The notes below the pieces were generated by a model. It was not told the origin of the DNA. It made no database searches and worked only from the letters and a program-made list of their open reading frames with translations. Both the position numbers and the translations under genes were made by a program. Positions 3,730 through 30,755 of a stretch of DNA of 41,595 nt are shown here, piece by piece. Within the stretch, counting starts at the first letter, position 1. Each line of letters starts with the position of its first letter. The stretch spans positions 1 through 41,595 of the forward strand of contig JAGQYE010000058.1 in assembly GCA_020436225.1 (NCBI GenBank), given 5' to 3'. Source of the DNA: Bacteroidota bacterium. GTDB taxonomy: Bacteria; Bacteroidota; Bacteroidia; Chitinophagales; JADIYW01.

Positions 3730-3737
3730 TATCTTTG
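3730..3737 (+). promoter_or_regulatory. -7 element upstream of adk
   Basis: TATCTTTG is a perfect TAnnTTTG element 21 bases before the adk ATG. The -33 region does not contain a clear TTG at 19-20 bases. Confidence 0.5.
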
Positions 3738-3758
3738 TTATTCAACTATTCATCATTC

Positions 3759-4343
3759 ATGATAAATTTAATTTTATTTGGTCCTCCGGGAAGCGGCAAA
3801 GGAACACAAGCCGTAAAACTTGCAGAAGAATTTAACTTATACCACATTTCTACAGGCGATTTATTCAGAAATGAAATCAGCAACGAAACGCCACTTGGCT
3901 TAGAAGCAAAAAAATATATGAGCAAAGGCGAATTGGTGCCGGACGAAGTAACCATCGGCATGTTGTCAAATAAATTAGACGAACAAGCCGGAAAAGTAAA
4001 TGGTTTTATCTTCGATGGATTTCCACGTACCGAACCTCAAGCAGATGCTTTAGATAAATTGTTAGATTTAAAAGATACTTCCGTTTCGCTTGTTTTAGCA
4101 TTAGAAGTTGGCGAAGATGAGATAACGGAACGCATTTTAGACAGAGCAAAAAAATCAGAAAATCCACGTGCAGACGATTTAGATGAAGCTATTATTCGCA
4201 ATCGTTTTCAAGTTTATTTGAAACAAACATCACCGGTTGCTGAGCATTATAAAAAAGCAGATAAATTAGTAACTATTGTTGGCATCGGTAGCATCAACGA
4301 AATTTTTGAAAAGTTGAAAGATGCTGTAAACGAAATCAAATAA
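3759..4343 (+). CDS. adk: Adenylate kinase (short-LID form)
   Basis: Interconverts ATP + AMP and 2 ADP in the cytoplasm. The 194-residue protein begins MINLILFGPPGSGKGTQ with the Walker A loop at about residues 8-15; AMP-binding TGDLFRNE, the DGFPRT motif and the C-terminal catalytic arginines (IIRNRFQVY) follow. The LID is the short form, RILDRAKKSENPRADDLDE, lacking the roughly 27-residue zinc or hydrogen-bonded LID insertion of the E. coli type; this is usual in Bacteroidota. The ATG at 3759 gives the canonical N-terminus; a TTG at 3735 would add a non-family extension. It is followed by a clear terminator, so it is probably a single-gene unit or the end of a serA read-through transcript. 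Confidence 0.97.
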   Translation: MINLILFGPPGSGKGTQAVKLAEEFNLYHISTGDLFRNEISNETPLGLEAKKYMSKGELVPDEVTIGMLSNKLDEQAGKVNGFIFDGFPRTEPQADALDKLLDLKDTSVSLVLALEVGEDEITERILDRAKKSENPRADDLDEAIIRNRFQVYLKQTSPVAEHYKKADKLVTIVGIGSINEIFEKLKDAVNEIK

Positions 4344-4364
4344 GAAATAAAAATCAACATAAAG

Positions 4365-4405
4365 AACGCTTCAAGAAGTAAAATCCTTGAAGCGTTTTTA
4401 TTTTT
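4365..4405 (+). terminator. Intrinsic terminator after adk
   Basis: AACGCTTCAAG (4365-4375) pairs perfectly with CTTGAAGCGTT (4386-4396), giving an 11-base-pair stem with a 10-base loop, followed by TTTATTTTT. It lies 21 bases past the adk stop. Its right arm and T tract are copied again 65 bases downstream. Confidence 0.85.
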
Positions 4406-4473
4406 CTATGTAGAACTGACACTCTGTTAGAGTCTGAGACTCTAACAGAGTAAGAAGCGTTTTATTTTTCTAT
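4389..4473 (+). repeat. 20/21-base direct repeat flanking a 14-bp palindrome
   Basis: The segment GAAGCGTTTTT then ATTTTTCTAT at 4389-4409 recurs at 4454-4473 with one T fewer. Between the copies sits ACTCTGTTAGAGTC (4421-4434), TGA, GACTCTAACAGAGT (4438-4451), a perfect 14-base-pair inverted repeat with a three-base loop. The first direct copy is the right arm and T tract of the adk terminator; the second leads into the obgE -7 element. The arrangement looks like a small palindromic element bounded by a duplicated flank. Confidence 0.7.
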
Positions 4474-4478
4474 CTTTG
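4471..4478 (+). promoter_or_regulatory. -7 element upstream of obgE
   Basis: TATCTTTG, a perfect TAnnTTTG, ends nine bases before the obgE ATG at 4488, implying a very short leader. It begins within the second direct-repeat copy. No clear -33 TTG. Confidence 0.5.
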
Positions 4479-4487
4479 TGAACTCTT

Positions 4488-5480: not shown

Positions 5481-5484
5481 AAAA

Positions 5485-5511
5485 AAACGACAGAAAAAAA
5501 TCTGTCGTTTT
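5485..5511. terminator. Bidirectional terminator between obgE and the DUF937 gene
   Basis: AAACGACAG (5485-5493) and CTGTCGTTT (5502-5510) form a 9-base-pair stem with an A-rich 8-base loop; an A run precedes it and T follows. It serves obgE on the plus strand and the convergent DUF937 gene on the minus strand. Confidence 0.8.
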
Positions 5512-30702: not shown

Positions 30703-30724
30703 TTATACTTTACCACCAAATGAG

Positions 30725-30755
30725 AAAATGCTACGAGAAAATCGTAGCATTTTTT
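30725..30755 (+). terminator. Intrinsic terminator after dnaN
   Basis: AAAATGCTACGA (30725-30736) pairs with TCGTAGCATTTT (30742-30753), 12 base pairs with a GAAAA loop, followed by T residues. A-rich and T-rich ends make it usable from both strands, serving the convergent alkyltransferase-like gene as well. Confidence 0.85.

Follow-up and report, generated by a model that had tools for sequence, protein, structure and literature searches.

A dispersed, RAYT-linked palindrome in the adk-obgE spacer of a Bacteroidota bacterium

Between adk and obgE lies a short palindrome, nested and untagged, which very probably belongs with a transposase gene of RAYT/TIRYT type (HUH, Y1) on contig C57 of the same genome. 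Copies of the palindrome are dispersed in the genome, the transposase gene is bracketed by two of them, the spacers of sister species lack it, and the same layout, with other palindrome sequences, is found in relatives. Together these observations point to a REP/TIR-like palindrome of a RAYT/TIRYT system.

The spacer and its palindrome

Features of the spacer are listed by their position in the window, that is, the whole stretch of DNA that was analysed (41,595 nt).

3759-4343, + strand: adk (adenylate kinase), the upstream gene (Pfam ADK, E=3.4e-51; ORF 3735-4343 with an internal ATG at 3759)
4362-4409, + strand: intrinsic terminator of adk, stem 4362-4375/4386-4399 plus a T-rich tract (same layout in the sisters G003, G004, G006 and G007)
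4389-4409, unstranded: flank copy 1, GAAGCGTTTTTATTTTTCTAT, the terminator right arm plus T tract (from the sequence)
4410-4473, unstranded: 64 bp without counterpart in the sister spacers (compared with G003, G004 and G007), comprising an 8-nt filler GTAGAACT, the palindrome, AA and flank copy 2
4418-4451, unstranded: dispersed palindrome, canonical form GACACTCTGTTAGAGTC-NNN-GACTCTAACAGAGTGTC (8 full copies in the genome)
4454-4473, unstranded: flank copy 2, GAAGCGTTTTATTTTTCTAT, a 20-nt direct duplicate of 4389-4409 minus one T (sequence and shuffle test)
4471-4478, + strand: putative -7 element of obgE, TATCTTTG, consensus TAnnTTTG (sequence, sister comparison and the consensus in PMC7366714)
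4488-5480, + strand: obgE (Pfam GTP1_OBG, E=5.9e-57)

The inverted repeat at 4421-4451 is perfect. The sequence-only reading of this DNA had described it as 14-bp arms around a TGA loop, which is correct, and it can also be read as 15-bp arms around a single nucleotide (ACTCTGTTAGAGTCT-G-AGACTCTAACAGAGT). The arm is a small palindrome in itself (ACTCT-GTT-AGAGT), making the element nested. Relative to the canonical form, this copy stops 3 bp short on the right, where GTC is missing. Among the short inverted repeats of the 41.6-kb window it is the strongest: no other combines perfect arms of at least 13 bp with a loop of at most 5 nt, and first-order random sequences of the same size gave 0.37 matches even when arms of at least 11 bp were accepted. 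Inverted repeats with arms of at least 11 bp were also seen at 5484-5511, a terminator-like hairpin immediately 3′ of obgE, and at 30723-30755, an AT-rich hairpin.

The same reading had reported that the right arm and T tract of the adk terminator are repeated on the far side of the palindrome. This repeat is real; the two flank copies differ by one T and align locally with a score of 18, where the best of 300 shuffles reached 13. The duplicated block is possibly longer than 21 bp, judging from GTAGAACT and GTGAACT.

From this repeat it had been proposed that the left arm of the terminator has two alternative partners, copy 1 and copy 2, and that the choice between them decides whether transcription passes from adk into obgE. 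On paper such pairing is available, with GAAGCGTTTT present in both flank copies and complementary to 4365-4372. However, copy 2 lacks the CTT that precedes GAAGCG and its helix is much weaker, whereas copy 1 offers a longer, local helix that would form first. The terminator stem is 93% complementary, with a core pairing probability of ~0.99 in the predicted ensemble, in which positions 4366-4375 are paired to copy 1 with probabilities of 0.91-0.999. A downstream partner, 4473-4476, is predicted to be favoured by the four lowest bases alone (4362-4365), and this pairing would extend the stem rather than form a rival hairpin. Blocking the terminator right arm is predicted to cost ~8 kcal/mol. 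Moreover, the sister species have a single flank copy and an ordinary adk terminator; two comparably stable, mutually exclusive structures shared with relatives were not found; the palindrome is dispersed behind unrelated genes; and no Rfam family reaches its gathering score. With the terminator helix dominating, a termination/read-through switch is very unlikely.

Copies in the genome and the linked transposase gene

The genome (2.69 Mb in 141 contigs, the one genome of this species analysed) was searched for the palindrome, a check that had been suggested earlier, and the element proved not to be unique. Eight full copies were found: one on C4 (the adk-obgE copy), two each on C125, C68 and C57, and one on C131. 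Partial copies, which are half, rearranged or degenerate, are present on C57, C60, C9 and C129, and a reversed control pattern gave zero matches in the same genome. The central three bases vary freely among copies and the flanks of the copies are unrelated. All five copies on C125, C68 and C131 are intergenic, mostly directly behind a coding sequence. The exact palindrome had no match in the GTDB-wide contig set or in IMG/VR, as would be expected of a family almost restricted to the species. Among the other 98 genomes searched, the palindrome was absent except for one degraded copy in G005.

A Y1_Tnp domain search of the genome returned three genes, the strongest of which lies on C57 between two palindrome copies. 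One of these palindromes forms the 3′ end of the reading frame of this Y1_Tnp / REP_Tyr_transpos gene (C57:10709-11326), and the second overlaps with the adjacent gene at its stop codon; from our own reading of its sequence we take this gene to be nadE-like. By rough arithmetic, the probability that two copies would bracket a Y1 gene by chance is <1e-5. The 206-aa reading matches NCBIfam REP_Tyr_transpos with E=1.6e-16 and 60.5 bits, below the curated cut-off of 80, and carries the class-2 signature (HuH motif plus Y---NP) as NHFH and YIHLNP. A profile of its relatives had a sole PDB match, E. coli TnpA_REP (4er8, E=7.4e-5). Outside this genome, neither an intact ortholog above ~47% identity nor a full palindrome was found.

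The second RAYT gene (C50, 134-857; 171 aa; NHLH, WQ, YIHNNP) matches the published subclass 2.6 motifs and is flanked by two identical palindromes, TTGACGGGTCTTGTGACCCGTCAA, which are the only two copies in the genome. The third Y1_Tnp-like gene (C37, L057:1654-2232; 192 aa; NHIH, YIHNNP) has no palindrome close by.

The distribution of copies bears on two further explanations. A classical MITE, mobilised by a DDE transposase and leaving the 20-bp repeat as a target-site duplication, would account for a short dispersed inverted repeat and for the directly duplicated flank at one copy. However, when seven full copies were tested, a flanking direct repeat above shuffles was found at this copy and at none of the six others, and it is therefore not a property of the element. 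The earlier proposal of an insertion with duplication of about 20 bases thus stands for the adk-obgE copy and fails for those six. Moreover, the element (31-37 bp) is wholly palindrome with no internal segment, a duplication of 20-21 bp would be unusually long, and the linked transposase gene is of HUH/Y1 type. A MITE is very unlikely, and the duplication confined to the adk-obgE copy is a local event, perhaps of repair or slippage.

The palindrome might instead be a hairpin unrelated to mobility that is selected behind genes, either for RNA stability or as a dispersed terminator of transcription in both directions. Its RNA hairpin is predicted to be strong (-21.4 kcal/mol), most copies follow closely on a coding sequence, and in G006 a RAYT-type palindrome appears to act as the adk terminator hairpin (see below). 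However, at both adk and dnaK (C68) a separate terminator with a T tract already precedes the palindrome, the central 3 nt are free to vary, and the copies, almost confined to the species, bracket a transposase gene. We consider this explanation unlikely, although secondary use of the palindrome as an RNA hairpin is possible.

Sister species and related RAYT loci

A comparison of the spacer with that of close relatives, also suggested at the outset, identified sister species with no palindrome between adk and obgE. In G003, G004 and G007 the T tract of the terminator goes directly into TATCTTTG. In G006 (L064) a different hairpin, AGACCTTGAAGGTTTTAAAACCTTCAAGGTCT, replaces the terminator hairpin; from its sequence it looks like another RAYT-linked palindrome serving as the adk terminator.

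The site of the transposase gene was compared likewise. In G003 and G004, nadE is followed immediately by the next gene, with neither transposase nor palindrome. In G005 (L223, 1150-1530) a decayed 34-aa relic of a C57-type RAYT, 71% identical, lies between nadE and the next gene, accompanied by a half palindrome, CACTCTAACAGAGTG. With both missing from G003 and G004 and remnants of both kept in G005, palindrome and transposase come and go together in this genus. No other observation argues more strongly that the two form one system. The earlier suggestion of an inserted REP- or MITE-like palindrome is supported, the element being dispersed, RAYT-linked and missing from the sister-species spacer.

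RAYT relatives were compared at 30 loci from the same order and at 80 loci from named genomes, mostly Bacteroidota. Palindromes of ~33 bp were enriched beside the RAYT gene in both sets, ~15-fold in the first (0.91 per kb vs 0.06 farther off) and ~12-fold in the second (1.48 vs 0.12 per kb). In 28 of the 80 loci the gene lies between matching palindromes, whose sequence differs from locus to locus. The arms were internally palindromic beyond shuffles in 18/28 at p<0.05, where several families are related and the tests are not independent. Dispersal of a RAYT gene's own type of palindrome was also observed elsewhere, with 19 copies in G010 and 7 in G008. In G009, no copies beyond the flanking pair were found within 3 mismatches, so dispersal is not universal. 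The RAYT flanks of L191 (e.g. 2728-2802) contain two palindromes with a common core, ACCCTGTTAGGGTTTC..AACCCTAACAGGGT. Their outer arms (~22 bp) are unrelated in sequence from one palindrome to the other, although in each palindrome they are perfectly complementary to one another.

Known systems, proposed mechanism and consequences

The kind of element is already known, from TIRtrons and the 'atypical' Bacteroidetes REPs, while the sequence family is new. TIRtrons/TIRYTs are RAYT-like genes flanked by dispersed terminal inverted repeats, some of them self-complementary or 'double palindromic' (Di Nocera et al. 2013, PMC3733652). The C57 locus resembles them, by description, in having a Y1 gene bracketed by a palindrome that lacks the GTAG tag, a modest number of related copies in the rest of the genome and, as in some TIRtrons, a double palindrome. 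It differs in the absence of the common GGGGWSAS motif and in its Bacteroidota host. In subclass 2.6 (RAYT group 5; Quentin et al. 2018, PMC6006769), genes of Bacteroidetes have untagged 'atypical' structures beside them that recur elsewhere in the genome, and the C57 locus shares the phylum, the untagged flanking structures and the further copies in the genome. However, its protein has NHFH, FE and YIHLNP where subclass 2.6 has NH[LIV]H, WQ and YIH[QN]NP. A comparison of the motif lists, as distinct from a phylogeny, places it nearer to subclass 2.1, and no REPs were found near subclass 2.1 genes in that study. Class-2 Y1 motifs, untagged palindromes on both sides of the gene and dispersed copies, as in TIRtrons and the atypical Bacteroidetes REPtrons, are all present.

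Likeness to the GTAG-tagged REPs and REPINs/BIMEs of Proteobacteria extends to short intergenic palindromes often behind genes, two inverted hairpin units and a dedicated transposase gene, with a RAYT gene flanked by the repeat in the same genome (C57). Unlike them, the palindrome has no bulge, is perfectly symmetrical about a 3-nt centre, and occurs in 8 copies, not hundreds. A GTAG/GTGG guide is also lacking, as no GTAG or GT[AG]G tetranucleotide is conserved 5′ of the hairpin in the flanks of the 8 copies. GTAG at 4410-4413 was considered as a REP guide and rejected, as it sits in the filler of the adk-obgE copy only.

The adk-obgE palindrome was most likely copied in by its transposase, with transposition deduced from the comparison of genomes. 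By analogy with the proposals for TnpA_REP and REPs (PMC6006769, PMC8266576), the C57 protein or an ancestor of it most likely mobilised it as a non-autonomous copy. When single-stranded, for example on the lagging strand, the palindrome would fold into one hairpin or two small ones, which the transposase would cut and rejoin at new intergenic sites, mostly behind genes. At adk-obgE the copy would have entered between the terminator T tract and the obgE -7 element, and local repair or slippage would have duplicated ~20 bp. This flanking duplication counts against the RAYT/TIRYT reading, being unexpected for an IS200/IS605-type insertion, and so does the low copy number (8). Once inserted, the palindrome is probably passive; if transcribed, it would add an extra hairpin behind adk.

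The insertion may also have affected obgE. The Bacteroidota promoter consensus quoted in PMC7366714 has a -7 element of TAnnTTTG, and in G004 a TTTG located 17 nt before TATCTTTG fits this consensus. In the window, TTG remains with copy 1, whose -7 reads TATGTAGA. Copy 2 has the -7 element, but TAAG replaces the TTG found ~17 nt upstream in the sisters. The likely -33 TTG would have been moved away from the obgE -7 box, and the putative obgE promoter may have been weakened or shifted.

Beyond this genome, it is possible, though doubtful, that a large Bacteroidota Y1 group (NHFH, YIHxNP), near in its motifs to the subclass 2.1 reported to lack REPs, uses untagged nested palindromes as substrates. 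The gene and its two end palindromes would insert as a unit, as the empty site beside nadE suggests, and insertion or later hairpin-templated repair would rebuild perfect arms from local DNA, giving copy-specific self-complementary outer arms.

A curious spacer beside two core genes can thus be read as the product of a recent insertion for which a transposase can be named, and the adk-obgE case indicates that insertions of this sort can occur at the overlap of a terminator and a promoter. Judging from the wider comparison, many RAYT-like genes of Bacteroidota seem to possess a nested, untagged palindrome of their own. This pattern would provide a testable substrate rule for a group of transposases whose substrates are poorly described in the publications consulted.
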